From Lichina pygmaea (lineage: Eukaryota; Ascomycota; Lichinomycetes; Lichinales; Lichinaceae), in contig OY730173.1 of assembly GCA_963422465.1 (NCBI GenBank), forward strand, positions 434,001 through 498,000: a stretch of 64,000 nucleotides of DNA, given 5' to 3'. Position numbers and translations under genes: made by a program. The notes under the pieces are model-generated. The model had not been told where the DNA came from and searched no databases. It saw only the letters and a list, made by a program, of their open reading frames with translations. Below are positions 2,012-55,321 of the stretch, in pieces; positions within the stretch are counted from its first letter, which is position 1; every line of letters begins with the position of its first letter.

Positions 2012-2166
2012 TGAACCCAGTCAGATTTGAACTGGCAACCTACGAAGCAAGGTTGAATCAGCACAAATGTTCATGTGGCACAATTTATCGGTAGTTGAAC
2101 CGAAAGGTGAGAGTTCTCATACCTTTCGATCTGGAGTCGAACGCGCTACCGTTGCGCCATGGGTCC
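2012..2166 (-). tRNA. tRNA-Trp (anticodon CCA) with an 83-nt interruption
   Basis: Reading the minus strand, the 5' part begins GGACCCATGGCGC and includes a D arm, an A box (TGGCGCAACGG) and an anticodon arm TTCGA-CTCCAGA-TCGAA, giving anticodon CCA. The 3' part holds a T arm with B box GTTCAAATC and closes the acceptor with TGGGTTC plus discriminator A. A run of eight T (forward A, 1996-2003) follows, as expected for a Pol III terminator. The two parts are split by 83 nt. If the interruption is placed in the variable loop (about 2038-2120) the remaining 72 nt fold perfectly; if it is placed at the usual 37/38 intron position (2047-2129) the anticodon stem keeps four of five pairs and the variable loop is four nt. 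The gene could be functional with a canonical intron, or carry an unusual insertion. Confidence 0.8.
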
Positions 2167-23510: not shown

Positions 23511-25087
23511 GATTTGTATGGGGGCAACAAAAGTCGCGAGACACCCCGCATTTCTCCTCCCAATCTGAGTCCCGGTCGCTATTGTTACTGTTCCCCTTCT
23601 CCACCACCAGAATCTTCGAGTCTTGAGTCTTGCGACTAGTCGTCTTCCCAATCTGAGCTCTCGTCACCCTGCTACTCCTCCTCCTCCTCCTCTTCTTCTT
23701 CTTCTGGCACCAGTATATCCTCAGGTCCTCAAGTCTCACGATGCTTGTTACCACCTTCCAGTATGATAATCTGCTGAATATGGTGAGGAATCCGCTCAAT
23801 CCACCACTGAATCCAAGACTGATCCAGCTCCCTCCAAGCCTTCAGCCATGCCTTTGTCATCTCATCTCTTGTCCTTGGTGCACAGAACTTTGTTGTCGTA
23901 CACTTCAGAAAAGGCCAGCATGGCTTGATAGCATTAAGATCAGGGGAGTTGCCTGGCTATAGCAATTGCTGAACACTGTAGCTGGAATAGATTGCCTTCT
24001 GAGAATGGTGTGTGTGTGGGGGGGTCTTGTCTTCTTGGACAATTGTGTTAGGACAAGATTGCTTGCACTCCTGAGCAAAAGGAAGAAGCTTTCCCATCAG
24101 AATAACTTGCCCATATCGATACCAGTCAATTCCTCCTGCTTTAGCTTGTTGTACAAGCTTGCCAGTCTGCTTTGTGAACTTCCAGACTGGTGCTTTGCCT
24201 GGCTTGTTGCGTAGACCTAGATGTTGGACCCCAGTCACAATCTCCTACTGTGCTTGACACTCAGATTCTCAAGTAGTGTTCATCTCAGCTAGCTCTTTCT
24301 CTGCAGTCTTCTTCTCTTGTGCAGTCTCTGGTCTCCAGATATGGCATAGTCCTTTCTTGTTGTACAAGAAAGATCCCCAGAACATGAACTCTGTAACCCC
24401 TTTCCAGCGCTGCTGAATAACTGTCTTGTCGTAGTGTTCTTCCAGTGTCCGCCAGAGTCAAGTCCCACCCTGTTGATGACCTAGAATAACTCCTGTCTTA
24501 TCTGTCTATATCACATTCTTCCAGTCTTCCAGGGTCTTATCTTTGTGTTCTATCGTAAACTGCAATCAAGCAGCTTTTATTGCTGGAGATAGGATAGGCT
24601 TCCATGTTGCCTTAAGCTTTTGGAAACAATTGCGACAAAGGATTTGCTGGACTGTACAAGCAGACACCGGAAACTTGTAGCTGATGTCAGGAGCAGACAT
24701 TTCTTGTCCATGATAATCCTTCCTGACTAGGTCAAGAAGATCTTTAGTCTGCTGCTTATTTAGAGCTTTCGGTCGACCGGTTTGTGGAGCGTCCTTGAAG
24801 AACTCGTGCTGGAAGACTGCATTGGTGACTGGATTGTAGCCACACTCGTACGCAAGTTGACGAATTCGATAGATAGTGCTGAAAGAAAGACCTGTGAGGT
24901 TGGTGATATGATTCACAGGGACACCCTCCTCAAGAAGAGCAAATACACGTGCTTTCTGCGAGATGCTGATGGCTTTGCTACCCATGGTGTCAGTGATGTG
25001 GGTGGTGTCGGTTGCAGATTTAGGTGGTGATCTCCAGTCTCATCACTTTTTGGAGGGATTGCGAATACTTTTGTCGCCGGCTTCCGT
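23481..25087 (-). mobile_element. Tc1/mariner-superfamily DNA transposon, decayed
   Basis: Bounded by perfect 32-bp inverted repeats (23479-23510 and 25058-25089, GTACGGAAGCCGGCGACAAA...), with TA at both outer edges as expected for TA target-site insertion. On the minus strand a helix-turn-helix start is intact (24985-24566; SISQKARVFALLEEGVPVNH, GLSFSTIYRIR, LNKQQTKDLLDLV). Beyond it the DDE domain can still be followed to about 23745 (EHKDKTLEDWKNVI, then *TDKTG where a WSDETG-like catalytic Asp motif is expected, and SPDLNAIKPCW) but is broken by several stops. Some of these (TGG to TAG, GAG to AAG) are G-to-A changes on the coding strand, as RIP would leave. Not active. Confidence 0.85.
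24566..24985 (-). pseudogene. Transposase N-terminal (HTH) fragment
   Basis: 140-codon open frame beginning MGSKAISISQKARV, covering the two N-terminal helix-turn-helix units that bind the inverted repeats in Tc1-type transposases. It ends in a stop (SPAIKAA*) well before the catalytic domain, which continues in decayed form downstream. It is therefore a fragment of a dead transposase gene. A full-length intact relative elsewhere in the genome would be expected if the family is active. Confidence 0.8.
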
Positions 25088-25089
25088 AC
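25058..25089 (-). repeat. Right terminal inverted repeat of the Tc1 element
   Basis: Exact reverse complement of 23479-23510; the outermost GTAC is itself palindromic and includes the TA target. Confidence 0.9.
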
Positions 25090-28442: not shown

Positions 28443-29930
28443 AGGCCGTACTCGTCACCCCGAGCGTGATCGTCGTCTCCAGCCGCCGTCATCGCCATCA
28501 CCGACCATCGTCGCTTCATCGGCATGTATCGTTGCCGGCGTGATCCCCGAGACCGGGCTGTATTCCCTGTCTTTTCTTTTGTTTCAAAAGCAAAGTATCC
28601 TCCGTCCATCAAGGACCGGTGCCCGCTGAGCCTTCTACCATGCTCTTCTCGTCTTATCAATCGAGCCTCCCTTCCGGTCTTGAAGCTCCCAACCATACCG
28701 GTGTCGGGCATCACTCACTAGATACTATTATTATTATCATTATTGCCCTTGATCCTCCTCCTCCTCCTCCTCCCTCTCCTCTTACCAACCCTCCCACCTG
28801 CAATTCCGACTCCTATCTCGCACGACAACGCCGCCTGGCCACTCCCAGCAAGCAACCACAACTTCCATCTCTTTCCCTGTCATCAAAAACACGACATTGA
28901 AGCACCGCCGACGGGGCCAGTCGAGGCCAGTACTAGATATATATAGGTACCGTACACATGCCTTCTTCAATGCGGAAGTCAACCACATTGTTACTTCAGT
29001 TCTACGTATAAACATCTTCTTTTCCTTCCTTCCTTCCTTCCTTCCTTCCTTCCTTCCCCTCCCATCTGACAAAGAGCGGAACACACTACACAGGTACGGA
29101 GGACCTCCTCCGCATCTTGGTCGCTACGTTTCTTCCATGTGTGCATGGTTATGTCCGAGTTGGGGTCCTTTGTGATGTAGGTATTGGTGGCTGGCGTCCT
29201 CGTCTCAGGACGTACTGTATGTACTCGGTACGTATGTGGTTCTGCCGGTAAGTAGTTGCAGTGAAGCTCGTGGAGGCTGGTGTGAGTATTCACTATGCAC
29301 TGCTTTGGAAGACACCATTTTACTGGCCAATTCTTCCCACGGTTACACCTTTCTGTTTGCTACAGTACGTTGGTTTTGCCTAGAGCTTCACCTACGAGGG
29401 TAGAAACTTGGGTGCTCTGACTAACTCTTGGCAGCCGTTGCAAGATATCAGGCGACACGCTTAGTCATACTGTATTAGATAACCGGGAGGGTGCTGGCCT
29501 GCTATGTGTCACTACAATCTCAAGCCTGTTCCAAAAGTGACAGGCTCTTTTTCTTTTGATAACAATCTACCTTTTGAACTTGCTGTTTTTCGATGAGTTT
29601 CAGAACAATTGATAAGGTCGAACTCGCGTAAGAAGTCCTAAGACATTAGCGTTTGCCTATTGTTTTCATCGGACGCTCCATTGGCTCTCGGTTGAGGCTT
29701 CCTGCTAGTGAACACAAGAAGGAAGGATTTACGCGTACGAGTAGAAAGAACTGAGCTACTGTGGTAGATGCAATCCTCACATGACAAGAACTCAGGAAAG
29801 GAAGAGTTGAAGCTCTCTCTCTCTCTTCTAGCTAGTCATCGCGGACCAAGGATTTAGTCTTGTCTATAGGGAGCTGAAAGCTGACAAAAGAGCGCAACTC
29901 CCTTCTTAGGTAGTCCTACTACTTGATATA
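28443..29930. other. Gene-free stretch after VAC8
   Basis: Holds microsatellites (TCC repeat near 28756-28780; seven to eight CCTT units at about 29025-29056; a TC run near 29816-29827) and scattered GTAC motifs at 29210-29235. No coding exons are supported. Confidence 0.55.
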
Positions 29931-29931
29931 T

Positions 29932-30451
29932 GTACGGAGGCCCGCGCCAAAAGTATTCGGAAAGATCTCTATATGAATGACAAAAGCCGTGAGACTATCT
30001 CTCAATTCCCCTCCCAGTCGTTATCATGATCCTTGTTGTCGTCCACCACCCCACCACCCCAGTGGTTTGAGGTCTTGAAGTCTGAAGTCCTTGAGTTTCT
30101 TCTCATAAAGCTCAGTCTTCTTCCCACTCTGAGCTGTCACTATTCTCATTATTGTTGTCACCATCGCTGTCGCTGTTCTTGTCCACAGAGTTTACGACTG
30201 GATGGTAGCCACAGTCAAAACATGACTTGACAGATTTGATAGATTGTGCTGGAGGAAAGGTCTGCAAGATTACTGATATGCTTCACAGGTACACCTTCTT
30301 CAAGAAGAGCAAGCACACATGCTTTCTATACAATGCTGTTGGTTCTGGTTGATCAGTGGTATGGGGTCGGGTGAGGTGGCTTTTGGTGGGTGGGGATAGT
30401 CTCATCACTTCTTGGTGGGATTCCGAATATTTCTGTCGCCAGCTCCCGTAC
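29932..30451 (-). mobile_element. Short deletion derivative related to the Tc1 element
   Basis: About 520 bp with imperfect ends GTACGGAGGCCCGCGCCAAA (29932) and TTCTGTCGCCAGCTCCCGTAC (ending 30451), about three-quarters identical to the 32-bp repeats of the 23.5-25.1 kb element. Inside, 30225-30335 matches the transposase start region of that element (TTCACAGG.ACACC.TCTTCAAGAAGAGCAA in the same order). The rest of the transposase is absent, so it could move only with a helper. Confidence 0.75.
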
Positions 30452-30699
30452 ACAAGTACGGAGATGCACGTAGTGCGTTCGACACACCCCCCCACGCCCC
30501 CCAGGTAGTGGTGTCGGCCCCCGTCTGTAGGCACTGTCTGTACTCTCGCACTATGTGTATCCATACCCGTCGGCTAATAATCTAGTGGTGTACTGTACGT
30601 ATGTACGTACGTACCTCGCCACGACCACGGTTCGAACCACCAACCTGTCAAGGGCGGGGTGTGTCCTCTGGTCTTTTTACCAGCGGACAATTAATGCGA

Positions 30700-31171
30700 T
30701 GCCCCCCTCTATGCAACTTTTTGCTTACCATGCCCCCCTTCGTACTTCCATGCCCCCCTGGCTTAGAGGTACGTGCCTTGGTACCTTGAAATTTGCGAAG
30801 ATCCCCGAGAGAGTGTAAGTACTCCAGAACTATTGACAAGTCTCATGCCCCGACCGCTTGACTCCAAGCAGCCGACGGAGTCTCCACACCCACAAAAATG
30901 CCATACACAGCATCAAAATTGAGGTCTGACTACAGGAACGTAAACTTGGACACCGGGTGTGACTAGGGAAAAAATCCGACCGAGAGATGTGTGCTGTGTG
31001 ATGCCTCCAAGACTTATGACACCTAGATCCTGATCGACTTTTAAAAGTACTTACGTTTTGGTGGCTCAGCTGGGTGTAGGGCATGTACTGAGGTATGTAC
31101 CAGCAGGCGAGGGGGGCATGGAAGTACGAAGGGGGGCATGGTACGCAAAAAGTTGCATAGAGGGGGGCATC
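30700..31171. mobile_element. Foldback element, copy A
   Basis: A 68-bp arm (30700-30769) reappears almost perfectly in reverse at 31105-31171, about 330 bp away. Each arm carries the unit ATGCCCCCCT three times with CTATGCAACTTTTTGC between. The unique middle shares GCATCAAAA.TGAG.TCTGA and AAGACTTATGACAC with a second copy at 54.9-55.3 kb. No protein is encoded. Best described as a MITE- or foldback-like repeat; its superfamily is not recognised. Confidence 0.75.
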
Positions 31172-50251: not shown

Positions 50252-52665
50252 CGTCGACCTGGACCGTTTCGATCAGCCTCCGCTCCTCTTCTTTCCTCCT
50301 CGACACGCAGGTCGTTTCGGTCCATGTTCCAATGCAGTCTACTTGTACTTGCTCGTCCCGAACTCGGACCCGGACCCCGACTTCGACGCCGCTGCGCTTC
50401 TCCAGATCGGGTCGCGTGCCGGAGGCGACGACCGCCACAGCCGTCCTCGCGGCCCCTCCTCACCCTCTCCGCTTGCTCCTCCCCATTTCTCCCTCTCCCT
50501 CCGACCCCGGGAAAGCATGTCTTGCCGGCTCGACAGTAGCACAGAAGCTCGAGGATCGACCAACGAGCGTGCTCCGGTAGCAGCTCGAGAGCCGGAAAAA
50601 GCAAGCACGCATTGTTTTGTGGGGAGATGATGGGCCGCTCGTCTACGAGTATTCGTTCTGGGCACTCATGCAGTCGTCGCAGCCGGAGGTACCTCCGCTG
50701 TTGGCGCAGCGATGGCACTGTATGCCACCTGTCCCGGTGGGGCGAATGCCGCATCTGGCACTTCGCAACGTCGCGACGACCATCAGAACGACGTTCGGAA
50801 CGCAGAAGCCGCAGGGCGCATAGCGTTGACGATGCTGCCGGACGAGATGCTTGCTCTCTCCTCCGACTAGGCCGCCGTCGATCGACGACGGCCCGGGGAC
50901 CAACTCCCCAATCCGAACGCGGCTTCTCGGCTCGGTGCTCGCTGGCCCTTCCCCGCGATAATCCAGCAATCTTAGCGCCCCTGCAAAGTTCAGACAAGAC
51001 GATGTGAAGGTCTCCTGCCGCGACGCCGAACCTGGCGGCGTCCTGGGCCTCGATCCCCACGGGGAAGACGTTTGCGCCGTCGGACAGGCAACGTCAGCAA
51101 GCCCTGCAAGCCTTCGACGGCACCTAGGCACGCTGGAGGCGTGCGACATCCGTAAGGGAAGGATCTCCGACCCGCGCCGTCCCTCGGAGATGCTGTAGCG
51201 AAGCTTGGCTCTCACGCTTCTGAAGCTTTCCGGCTGGGTTCATCTTGGTCTGCGCCACAGCGAGGCGCCCAATCATGTAGAACGTAGAGCCCCACGGCCC
51301 CTACGCCTCGTACCCTATCGTCACTTGAAGCAGTCAGCCGGGTCCTGTCTGAGGACATTCCGGGAAAGCCTCAGTTCGTTGCTGCTCGGAGAAGCACAAC
51401 GACGACATGCAGCCTCCATCACGAGCAGGCGCCCTTAGCAGCCACAGCAGCTCACAACGGCAATTGTATCAGCGCCGACAGGGGCGGGAAGTGGTCGGTC
51501 TTCGCTTGGGACGACGAATGGCGATGATGTTCATGGACGGTGCTGACGATGGCCGAAAGCTGAACGAACTGTGATTTCGCCCGGACGCCGTCAGAACATG
51601 TTTTTCCACGGTGAGTGCTACCGAGGTAAAGTACTTCCGAGAAAGTTGTGGTCGGGCTTGGCGTTTCCCATTACTAATACTCCATAGGAATGCCCAGTAA
51701 CCTTACTTCCGTACGTACGTACGAAGGGGTACGTACTACGAGTAGTAGCGAATCTCGCCACTGCTCGCACCGTAAACCTGCGTCTTAATAATATGAATCG
51801 CTACTGTAGGCGAGCCGCCTCGTGTGTAAAACTTACGAGTACATACGTACTGTACATAGGTACTGTACATACGTACTTCGTACTGTCAGCTTCTTCCAAG
51901 TGGGCGTCTTACTCGTACGAGTAGGTTAAAAAAATTACGTCTAGTCTGGTGTGTAAGCAGGAGAAAAAACCAAGGATGAGCTCTTTCGTCAAGTACTGTT
52001 GAGACATGAGATTTGCAACAGAGAGTAGAGTACATGTGTACTCCGCACTCTGTCGTAGGCTCAAGCAGTACAAGGTACGAGGGTACGAGTAAGAAGTGAC
52101 ATGGTACTGTACGAATGTACGGAGTGCAATGGACACCTTGTCGGCATTTGGTTGAGTCCTGAGGCTTGAAGACCTTTGCGGGTCCAATGCCCGACGACCA
52201 ATCATGCTGACTCATGAAACAGCACTTGCTTAATCAGCGCATCCATAAGCACGTGAAACTATGTACAGGATGCCCATTGACCATTGTCCGTTGACAAGGT
52301 ACGTAACCTACAAGTACGAGGTCGGTGACAGACATAACGTTACAGACGTACATACGCACTGTTAGTCAGCTGAGAAATCAGCAACCATACTGAACCACCG
52401 ACTCAGCCTGGAAACTCTAGATGTCTCGAGAATTCTGACAATACAGCTGTGCAACTAACTCTCGCCTGTACAGTACTGTACTCCTGTAATGTTTTATCCC
52501 GGACACACCTCGTACCCGTGTCATGGGTACCCCATTTTCCTGGGACATGCGTACTGTACATGCTTAACTCCGGACAATTACTGCTGTACATACGTATGTA
52601 TGGAGTACTCTGTACCCGTGCCAAGGGGAGGCACTCCATACCCCCTCCTCCTGCACCTTCAGTAG
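50252..52665. other. Gene-free accessory stretch
   Basis: Overlapping open frames on both strands at 50.2-51.2 kb lack splice or domain support. 51700-51890 and 52040-52130 are packed with GTAC, TACGTACG and TACGAGTA motifs. No tRNA or exon seen. Confidence 0.5.
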
Positions 52666-52848
52666 TCGGAACACCCCTTCTCTCGGAGGGGTGTTGATCA
52701 TTTGTCCGATACAATCAGCTGTCTGATACATTTTCATGATAGATTCAACTGCAATGCCTATAACTCCACAACAGAGAGACTAAACAGAAAAGTAAGTGGC
52801 TTATTTGATTTGCCTGCTTCTGGACTATAATCTCTGAAGTTTTAGGTC
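52666..52848 (+). repeat. Left long inverted repeat of the 2.2-kb element
   Basis: Starts GGAACACCCC with a self-complementary tip, runs through CGATACAATCAGCTGTCTGA and GAGACTAAACAGAAAAGTAA; similarity to the right copy weakens after TCTCTGAAGTTTTAGG. Confidence 0.8.
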
Positions 52849-54689
52849 TCTGCTTGAGCCATGATAGTAGATGAAGTAGAAAACAATGAAGAAAGATTGA
52901 TGAGAGAAGTGAAGCGAGTGACTCAAGCTTCTATGGTAGCTAACATGGTCATAGTAGCTAGAGCAGCTACTCAACGATGCCAGTAAAATCAGGACAGACT
53001 TGCAGCCTCAGGGATGATGGAAAGAAAGTTGGTTATTGGTTATTGGTATTCCTACTCCATTCTAGTGCTAGTTATCTAGACTATGCTGGGTCAGCTATGA
53101 AAATTAAGCAAGGAAAACCCTAGACCTGCTAGGGTGAGAAACCTCCTTCTGCAGTGCCTGGCCAGCACTATCCTGTCGAGATGCTGTAGAACATGGGGGG
53201 TGGCTGGCTAGCAGCCAGCTTCCAGCTGCTCCTGAGCCCAGGAGAACTGGGGGAGAATGCCTTGTCAGAGGATCCACGCTGTGAGGGCGGTGGTGGGCCG
53301 TGGTCAGGATGTCAAAGCCTGGTAGTCAGTGGTGGCAGCTGCTAGATACAGGCTTCGCCGCACTCGGAGAAGGCGTGGGCAGCCACAGTTGAGCTATGCC
53401 GAGGCATAGCGCAGAGTCGACATCCTGTGCAGGGTCTCTGCCACGCTTCCCCACAGTCCTGAGGCCTTTTGCGCTCCGCCGTGTACGCTCACCCCTAGGT
53501 CCTGCTTCGGAGTGCTGGGTTGCCAGCCCGGAGCCCACGCTCCAACTGCAGTTTGCTCCTTGAGCCTGTCATTTGCAGCCTGAGCCTGCACTCTGTACGG
53601 ACCGGCATGCGCTTCCGTCCTCTCAGGCCATATAGACAGTCTCGTAGTAGGCCCAGACCCTACTGCCATCACTGCCATTATATGCCACACCCCGCAGCTC
53701 TTGCTGTTTCGTGTTACCTCTGTAGATCTCTTGTACAGAGGCCGACCATGCCTCGCAGGCTCTACGGACCCTGCAGGCCATGCCAGCACCTGCAGGACTG
53801 CCTTTCCAGCCCACTAACCAAGTAGGGAGGAGTCTCAATCTGCCCGCTGTCGCCTGTGGGGCCCCGGTTGTACGCGGTGACCCACCAGAGAACCTCTGAA
53901 CAGAGAATCTCCAGTGCCCCGGCCCCGGTCTGCAGGCAGTCCGAAGGGAACCTGTGGCAAGACCTTAGGCAAAACCATCAAGCCAGCACTTTGGCTATCA
54001 CACAGCCCTTAGGCACTGGAGCGGTGGGCTTCCTCCAGGCTGCCTGCTCACCTTCTTGAACATGTATTCCCCGTTCGATTAACAATGCTGCGGTGCAGAT
54101 ATCACTCCCCTCCTAGAACAAGATCCTTGACGCATTAGCTGCTGGAGACTCTGCTAGGGGGGGGGTTGTGTGATGAAAACTCCTCTTGACTACTCCTGAG
54201 GTGCCCTGTCGGATGCCTAGACTTCACATCCACCAGCTGCAGGGCTGGTTTCGGGCCGTAGCGTACACAGTAGACATCCGTCGGGTGGTTTTCATAACCA
54301 GTTTGGTCGCAGTCCTCTGTTCTGCTGATGTCACCTCACGGGGGTGTCCAGGGTGCCTGCGTGACACCTCCGGTGGCCCGTCGCTCCACGGGCACCAGCA
54401 GCTTGACTGGTGACTCAATTAGCTCTCGGTGCAGCGACTACAAGCAGCTTGAGAGACTGCCTGCCATCGCTGCCCCAAGGTTCCCAGCCTGCACCGTGTG
54501 GAGGTTTGAGTTGTCGCAGGCCATGGAAAGAAAGTAGGAGAATCAGATAAGCACATAAAAATTACTGTTTGCCTATCTGATTGTGAAGTTATAGACATTA
54601 TAAGATTGATGTTGTTGAGAGCCTGGTTTTGAACAACAACTGCTGTAACATCTCACTAACACCACAGAAATCTAGAGAAGTCTATAACT

Positions 54690-54866
54690 TCAGGGATTGT
54701 AGTAGAGAGATAGAGGAATCCAATAAGCAGTTTACTTTTCTGTTTAGTCGCTCTGTTATGGAGTTATGTACATTGCAGTTGAATCTATCGTGAAAATGTA
54801 TTGGACAGCTGATTGTATCAGACAAGTGATCAACACCCCCCCGGGAGGAGGGGTGTTCTGACTGTA
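54690..54866 (-). repeat. Right long inverted repeat of the 2.2-kb element
   Basis: Reverse-complement counterpart of 52666-52848, with scattered substitutions (about one base in ten by eye). Confidence 0.8.
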
Positions 54867-54905
54867 CCAAAGGTGAGGTATGTACTACGTACCTAACGTA
54901 CGAAG

Positions 54906-55321
54906 TGCCCCTCTTCTATGCAAATTTCTTGCTCCCATGCCCCCCTCTTACTTCACTGCCCCCCTCGCTCACCATTGGTACTTCTAATTTAGTAGTAGCC
55001 CCGAGGAACAATAAGTACTGCTAAACTTCTGCGGCATCAGCCCCCCGACTGACACAGTCACACAGCTACCGGAATCTCTACCCCCCCCCCCCCCCCCAAA
55101 AAGCGATATCCGGCATCAAAACTGAGATCTGAGTACGCCAATGTAGGACTGAGCATCTCACATAGCTTCTCAAAACTTGTGACTGAGAAAACTTGCTATG
55201 TGGTTCTGTCAAGACTTATGACACGCTCAGATCAAAGAGATATCTAGCTTTAACGTGGTAGCGAAGTGCATGTGCCTACCTAAGCGAAGGGGACACTGGA
55301 GCAAGAAATCTGCATAATTGG
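54906..55321. mobile_element. Foldback element, copy B
   Basis: Left arm 54906-54972 (GCCCCTCTTCTATGCAAATT, CATGCCCCCCTC) and right arm about 55283-55321 (GGAGCAAGAAATCTGCATAA) are inverted copies. The middle shares GCATCAAAACTGAGATCTGA and CAAGACTTATGACACG with copy A at 30.7-31.2 kb. It contains C17 (55081-55097). Lies only 40 bp from the end of the 2.2-kb element. More diverged than copy A, so probably older. Confidence 0.65.

Follow-up and report, generated by a model that had tools for sequence, protein, structure and literature searches.

Within a 64,000-nucleotide stretch of the Lichina pygmaea genome (the window) we identified a composite unit which, judging from its copies elsewhere in the genome, is a MITE carrying a later retro-insert, that is, two insertions of different kinds in place of the single element proposed by the initial annotation. 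With a probability of roughly 0.85 the unit arose through the landing of a MITE and the subsequent insertion of a template-switch chimera, in which the cDNA of a LINE would have been joined to that of a ribozyme-headed non-coding RNA. The window corresponds to C5:434001-498000 of a genome of 32.47 Mb in 8 contigs, and the components of the unit are as follows.

52613..52614, no strand: TA at the left outer MITE end, the presumed target dinucleotide (sequence; repeat-end comparison)
52615..53029, plus strand: left MITE part with terminal repeat, hairpin tip, AT-rich rim and the first duplication copy (repeat comparison)
52670..52695, no strand: left subterminal hairpin, AACACCCC...GGGGTGTT (fold; recurs in other MITE copies)
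53017..53029, no strand: target-site duplication, copy 1, ATGGAAAGAAAGT (sequence; empty-site alignment)
53030..53382, minus strand: LINE part, a 353-bp 5′-truncated non-LTR 3′ end terminating in AATACCAATAACC-type repeats (locus comparison)
53383..54522, minus strand: 1140-bp module, probably the copy of a non-coding RNA, starting GGCCTGCG and ending AACTGTGG (copy comparison)
53393..53410, minus strand: 8-bp hairpin, GCTATGCC/GGCATAGC, ending 10 nt before the module 3′ end (sequence)
54412..54522, minus strand: HDV-like ribozyme fold with predicted cleavage directly before 54522 (Rfam; descriptor; fold)
54523..54535, no strand: target-site duplication, copy 2, ATGGAAAGAAAGT (sequence; empty-site alignment)
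54523..54916, plus strand: right MITE part, the outermost ~50 bases decayed (repeat comparison)
54832..54857, no strand: right subterminal hairpin (fold compared with shuffles)

The rims of the unit are, on repeat comparison, a non-autonomous DNA transposon (MITE) of approximately 0.8 kb, which as a transposon is ordinary. Its length is 776-869 bp in thirteen copies that lack the insert and retain both tips, and queries with the left end (237 bp) and the right end (324 bp) returned at least 40 and at least 55 genome matches respectively, both arms of a copy being counted. Much of the first description of these rims was borne out: the inverted repeats of about 180 bp correspond to arms at 52664-52845 and 54682-54863 (182 nt, 84 % complementary, 1836 nt between them), the tips fold as DNA hairpins (52670-52695, z = -4.84; 54832-54857, z = -2.34, relative to shuffles) and the rims reach 36-44 % GC compared with 53-63 % in the core (200-base windows). 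The terminal repeat exceeds the length given there, however: with its hairpins it is approximately 235 bp in length and good copies start with TACCCGTGCC, beside TA, about 50 bases further out. In the window copy the left end is intact (52613/52615) while the right tip has decayed beyond ~54863 and adjoins another small element with TA flanks (54917-55316). This neighbor, some 400 bp in length, has TA on either side and inverted ends of 31 bp (84 %), and part of it matches the locus L069.

Almost every MITE end listed has a TA dinucleotide before its CCCGTGCC tip; it is missing at the left end of L005, the right ends of L038 and L039 and the right end in the window, among others. The flanks beyond TA are mostly unmatched by eye, the search pattern having itself included TA, and an 8-base flank match at L040 lies in GTAC-rich flanks and is chance-like. 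No regular target duplication of 8-11 bp, for which the initial annotation had proposed a check, was apparent by eye at the MITE flanks. Because TA stands at nearly all tips and no longer flank match occurs in most copies, a TA target duplication, of which only the left TA is intact in the window, is likely rather than proven; an unoccupied genomic site of the MITE was not encountered.

Larger elements with similar ends indicate the class of the MITE. The inverted repeats of L069 are 150 bp in length and 98.7 % alike, spanning 2236 bp tip to tip, and those of L071, L074 and L075 are 142-143 bp and 94-99 % alike. Pfam domains HTH_Tnp_Tc5 and DDE_1 share a single frame in L071 and are split over two adjacent frames in L069. 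The MITE thus probably belongs to the Tc1/mariner class, since relatives with similar ends encode DDE_1 and HTH_Tnp_Tc5, and we take it to be pogo/Fot1-like. It resembles MITEs of that group in its TA flanks, inverted ends, lack of a transposase and DDE_1 and HTH_Tnp_Tc5 relatives but differs in its long hairpin-bearing terminal repeats and in the distance of those relatives, whose ends (L069, L071, L074, L075) are only 72-79 % alike to those of the MITE. The search for autonomous relatives suggested in the initial annotation therefore yielded a related subfamily of L069/L071-type elements, as far as their sequences tell, rather than a proven source of transposase. A genome-wide search for transposases with DDE_1 (PF03184) gave 112 matches, and MITE-like ends were absent from all ten of the fetched loci of other DDE_1 matches.

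The core (53030-54522, minus strand) is, as the empty sites show, a later retro-insertion into an existing MITE. Three MITEs, L002, L003 and L004, are without the core. The sequence on either side of it in the window unit aligns to one uninterrupted stretch of these MITEs, reaching 53032 on the left and resuming at 54523 on the right, with an overlap of 16 bases. Since this overlap represents the target duplication, the insert is bounded at 53030 and 54522. The duplication comprises 13 exact bases, or 16 with one mismatch, and the empty MITEs do not have this sequence in duplicate. Search of the core against the host genome, a check proposed at the outset, identified it as a repeat with at least 54 matches, the best 40 of 568 candidates being scored. 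Taken together, the repeated core, the internal 13-bp duplication, the empty MITEs and the LINE chimera described below argue for retrotransposition into an existing MITE. The initial annotation had been correct in giving core and rims different origins; it had likened the unit to a Pack-MULE, in which a non-coding core lies between long inverted repeats, and the GC-rich core between AT-rich arms has that appearance. We consider such capture of a host segment very improbable, and the MITEs with an empty site together with the internal 13-bp duplication contradict it. The core is moreover repeated in the genome, and relatives of the MITE carry a transposase of the DDE_1 class. The unit differs from a Pack-MULE in that its core is a later retro-insertion and in that the MITE copies show no regular 8-11-bp duplication.

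Other copies of the insert also lie between target duplications. Ten chimeras with a LINE 3′ end, from a set of 20 loci (L009-L028), all have duplications of 12-16 bp with at most one mismatch, the best downstream match being taken in a search without shuffled control, and each of the ten matches immediately follows the simple-repeat tail of the LINE. A SINE or LTR origin of the core was rejected on account of these 12-16-bp duplications and LINE tails. LINE or chimera insertions were also seen in the MITE copies L021, L037 and L041, at differing sites in L021 and L041, and LINEs may frequently land in the AT-rich interior of the MITE.

Read on the minus strand, the insert consists of the 1140-bp module followed by the last 353 bp of a LINE. 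Sequence past the module was inspected at 34 loci, compared with 137 places in the genome having the module 3′ end. These loci provided 35 junctions (L091, which lacks the module 3′ end, was excluded), at all of which the module terminates at one position with small sequence variants. At 34 of them it is fused directly to LINE sequence in the same orientation as the module, and no two of these tails share their first 14 bases, although those of L021 and L026 are offset by a single base in related LINEs. Sequence running through the junction was supplied by a different locus for 27 of the 34, weakly in the case of L079 (68 %) and L013 (75 %). The tails of L017 (zinc knuckle) and of L022, L023 and L028 (reverse transcriptase) are LINE-like by translation, and L082, L086 and L087 were counted as LINE as other tails map into or beside them (by eye for L087). 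Five LINE pieces were searched against Pfam: that of L023 gave RVT_1 with an E of 2.3e-16, the sole match passing the curated cut-off, two others gave matches under the cut-off, one matched a weak unrelated family and one gave none. By eye and translation, the tails fall in zinc-knuckle, reverse transcriptase, C-terminal and 5′-region sequence of more than one LINE, and two different C-terminal sequences point, by eye, to at least two LINE families. One large LINE family includes numerous zinc-knuckle frames of 507 aa that are open and score almost equally (best 150 of 581), and because of this it is possibly young or active.

The remaining junction, the first of L078, joins the module to a 5′-truncated second module that is itself joined to a LINE. 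This tripartite arrangement of module, truncated module and LINE (C4:3397600-3400400) suggests from its structure that a module-bearing RNA was itself used as a template or that a double switch took place.

With constant module ends and variable points of entry into the LINE, the insert is well supported by its junctions as a template-switch chimera. The alternative in which the module is the 5′ UTR of a LINE, with the short copies being non-autonomous derivatives of LINEs formed by internal deletion, such as RIME/NARTc of trypanosomes, is unlikely. Its module 5′ ends would be complete, as observed, a solo module was not seen at the 35 junctions, and HDV-like ribozymes occur at the 5′ ends of the R2 and L1Tc LINEs in the available parts of the respective reports (PMC3774820, PMC4035085). 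It is opposed by the constant module 3′ boundary, from which 34 LINE tails all start differently and in more than one LINE. Furthermore the tail of L087 resembles (by eye) the region upstream of the L070 LINE ORF1, which is not module-like, and LINE ORF1 of L113 together with its upstream DNA has no module match, the start of that LINE not being known. L112, a candidate for a LINE 5′ end, was rejected as it is a host gene.

The points at which the tails begin show a bias. The first two bases of the 35 tails (34 LINE, one module) are CC in 23, CT in 5, TC in 5, TT in 1 and CA in 1. CC starts (23/35, with 12 tails lacking CC) compare with a background of 8.3 % (p 4e-17), and CCA starts (15/35) with 2.5 % (p 2e-15). 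Where the context is known, the bases that follow ...AACTGTGG are those of the LINE. This bias suggests microhomology with the 3′ end of the module RNA. It would fit pairing between a terminal ...GGCC(A) of that RNA, some of whose molecules would stop at GG, and cDNA with (T)GG at its end. Alternatively, the CC bias could reflect where the enzyme prefers to pause.

The full series of events would then be as follows. A Tc1/mariner-class (pogo/Fot1-like) non-autonomous MITE would have landed first, and later a LINE reverse transcriptase would have nicked its AT-rich interior and started to copy LINE RNA. After 353 nt copying would have halted and jumped to the 3′ end of a 1.14-kb non-coding transcript, separate from that of the LINE, the jump often being aided where cDNA ending in GG can pair with CC at the RNA 3′ end. 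This second RNA would have been copied to its 5′ end, itself set by an HDV-like self-cleaving ribozyme, resulting in a chimera between 13-bp target duplications.

The module is present in high copy number with sharply defined ends. Its 3′ end (at most one mismatch) was found at 137 places in the genome and its 5′ end (at most two mismatches) at 181, reversed-pattern controls giving 0 and 0. At least forty core matches reach the end of the query, 2 bases short of the module 5′ end. Forty-three copies begin at the same position (G, or A in 3) after unrelated flanks, although 20 of these were chosen by their 5′ end and thus provide no independent word on completeness. Twenty-two copies measure 1124-1161 bp, with deletions of 1, 7 and 15 bases relative to the consensus. 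The hairpin at 53393..53410 is a possible 3′-end signal. No exact head-to-tail joins of the module with a gap of 0-8 bases were found, and a tandem or circular source RNA was rejected on that basis. Decay of the copies (those in L009-L028, L078 and L081) is mainly by C-to-T and G-to-A changes at CpG, where 176 of the 266 C>T and 224 of the 302 G>A changes lie; the module copy in the window carries 38 C-to-T/G-to-A transitions, irrespective of context, and 3 changes of another type. The classical context of RIP is CpA, and the CpG-centred pattern suggests CpG methylation or a CpG-type RIP.

Coding capacity, denied to the unit by the initial annotation, appears limited. No Pfam domain was found in the three core frames tested, in agreement with the stated lack of a transposase, and a protein-coding core was rejected on these grounds. 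A stop-to-stop frame of 139 aa, the longest in the core, recurs however among copies and tempers that rejection; frames among module copies reach 189 aa. From its sequence the module is probably non-coding.

At its 5′ end the module displays the features of an HDV-like ribozyme, namely a nested double pseudoknot, five helices and a C in J4/2. By eye, the common sequence folds into P1 (GGCCUGC/GCAGGCU, with G1-U37), P2 (GACUCAA/UUGAGUC), P3 (ACC/GGU, with loop UCCACGC), P1.1 (CC/GG), a 12-pair P4 and a J4/2 with CUAA; in the window copy the outermost P2 pair is broken. The first nucleotide of the module seems on this model to be the predicted cleavage site. Comparison with RNA databases, another of the checks proposed, placed HDV_ribozyme (RF00094) at the top of 4227 Rfam families on a 1.6-kb stretch, at 54524-54450 (minus strand), although the match of 27.4 bits (E 0.18) is below the Rfam gathering score of 50. 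A strict HDV-like descriptor gave one match on both strands of the window (128 kb), at 54522, and one match in 691 shuffled 64-kb strands (first-order random sequence). In all fetched loci (0.6 Mb, both strands, the loci overlapping) its 31 matches are all module starts, representing 31 of at least 43 such starts, decayed copies failing. As it was drawn up with the fold already known, the descriptor constitutes support for a ribozyme rather than proof. In an alignment of 32 distinct 5′ ends, standard pairs fill 97.6 % of the pair cells, compared with 29.5-35.5 % for slid versions, and J4/2 CTAA is invariant; the covariation score equals that of shuffles, the aligned copies being 95 % identical. 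Since the fold was judged by the descriptor and its Rfam score lies under the threshold, we file it as HDV-like only. The structured RNA that the initial annotation offered as one option for the core thus gains a ribozyme-like 5′ end at the level of fold prediction.

At gathering score, Rfam found a tRNA alone in the whole window, at 2012-2166 (minus strand). It spans 155 bases and so perhaps contains an intron, and it is without an ARAGORN call. Further stretches matching fetched loci lie at 23969-25089, 29743-29935 and 30660-31171. Genes of the window encode Ams2/SPT21 N-terminal, RhoGAP and EFL1-type domains, and these, like the kinds of transposon present, are consistent with a filamentous fungus.

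The 34 loci inspected past the module did not reveal a source gene for it, and the 35 junctions included no solo module. The module may possibly, although we regard this as doubtful, be a selfish RNA without a cellular gene, remade from chimeric copies and re-attached to new LINE cDNA, the ribozyme trimming the new RNA at its 5′ end and a second cut being made close to the 3′ hairpin. None of the 35 ends is solo, 34 leading to a LINE and one to a truncated LINE-fused module, and the 137-181 copies have a conserved ribozyme-like 5′ end. The structure of L078 suggests that module-bearing RNA can again be a template, and Magnaporthe is likewise without solo copies of its module WEIRD in the available part of the report describing it (PMC2104539). 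Only about a quarter of the copies was examined, however, and a single source gene may sit among the rest. By an extension of this idea that we put forward tentatively, the module would be an RNA that begins with a ribozyme and parasitizes more than one LINE family, remade from chimeras and spreading only via unfinished LINE cDNA. Having neither a reverse transcriptase nor a LINE-like 3′ end, it would rely on the ribozyme to make its exact 5′ end and on a 3′-terminal CC(A) to capture cDNA ending in GG.

The closest known system is MINE of Magnaporthe grisea. According to the available part of its 2007 description, MINE combines WEIRD (1113 nt) with a truncated MGL in 31 copies, with 10-20-bp duplications, no solo WEIRD and, at that time, no relative elsewhere; other chimeras of Magnaporthe involve Mg-SINE and the LINE Enigma. 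Switch points there are GCC*A/U, microhomology was reported absent and template switching was invoked (PMC2104539). As far as that text extends, the two systems share a non-coding RNA copy of about 1.1 kb placed before a 5′-truncated LINE, tripartite cases, target duplications within 10-20 bp, CC-containing switch sites and the lack of any solo copy found. The likeness thus rests on structural features, namely an RNA part with constant ends, variable LINE truncation and duplications. The best match of MINE primer MNR2 to the insert has 7 mismatches of 20, the place of the primer in MINE not being known. The systems differ, within the same portion of the source, in number (137-181 ends here compared with 31 MINEs) and in the tails, which belong to several LINEs here and there to MGL, plus Enigma and Mg-SINE in some chimeras. 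They differ also in the predicted HDV-like 5′ ribozyme, for which the available text on WEIRD contains no mention, and in the CC that we read as microhomology but which was not so found there (PMC2104539). Chimeras of LINE-1 with diverse RNAs have been catalogued, as the accessible part of that report states (PMC13174262).

HDV-like ribozymes are located at the 5′ ends of R2 and L1Tc/ingi retrotransposons (PMC3774820, PMC4035085; in the parts available), and the module resembles them in that the retrotransposed RNA begins with a ribozyme fold. For R2, cleavage takes place at its own 5′ junction or upstream of it. In these systems the fold is on the LINE, whereas here it would be on a non-coding passenger RNA. 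For R2 transgene templates a stable HDV-like ribozyme fold is the optimal 5′ end, to judge from the accessible text (PMC11331408), which fits the place of the predicted ribozyme at the module start. HDV-class variants are found in fungal genomes and two constructs cleave, by the portion of that study available (PMC5640933). As described there, P4 of these variants contains a loop E, an additional base separates P2 from P3 and the cleavage site has C-G, whereas the module fold has the general HDV form with G-U at the site; the word 'Retrotransposon' is absent from the main text of PMC5640933. Among the open-access matches listed, none by title or abstract ties an HDV-like ribozyme to a template-switch acceptor RNA. 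What is new here is apparently a second, larger set of the MINE type, its ribozyme-like 5′ end and the reading of CC.

As of 2007, in the available account, WEIRD-LINE chimeras had been described from one fungus with no source gene, and the choice of RNA and the origin of its ends were unexplained (PMC2104539). A predicted 5′ ribozyme together with a CC bias provides a testable account of both RNA ends and of the choice of acceptor. If the module is indeed such a parasite, a second example would be provided by WEIRD of Magnaporthe, which should then start with a ribozyme of this kind. The finding joins HDV-like ribozymes with template switching by LINEs.
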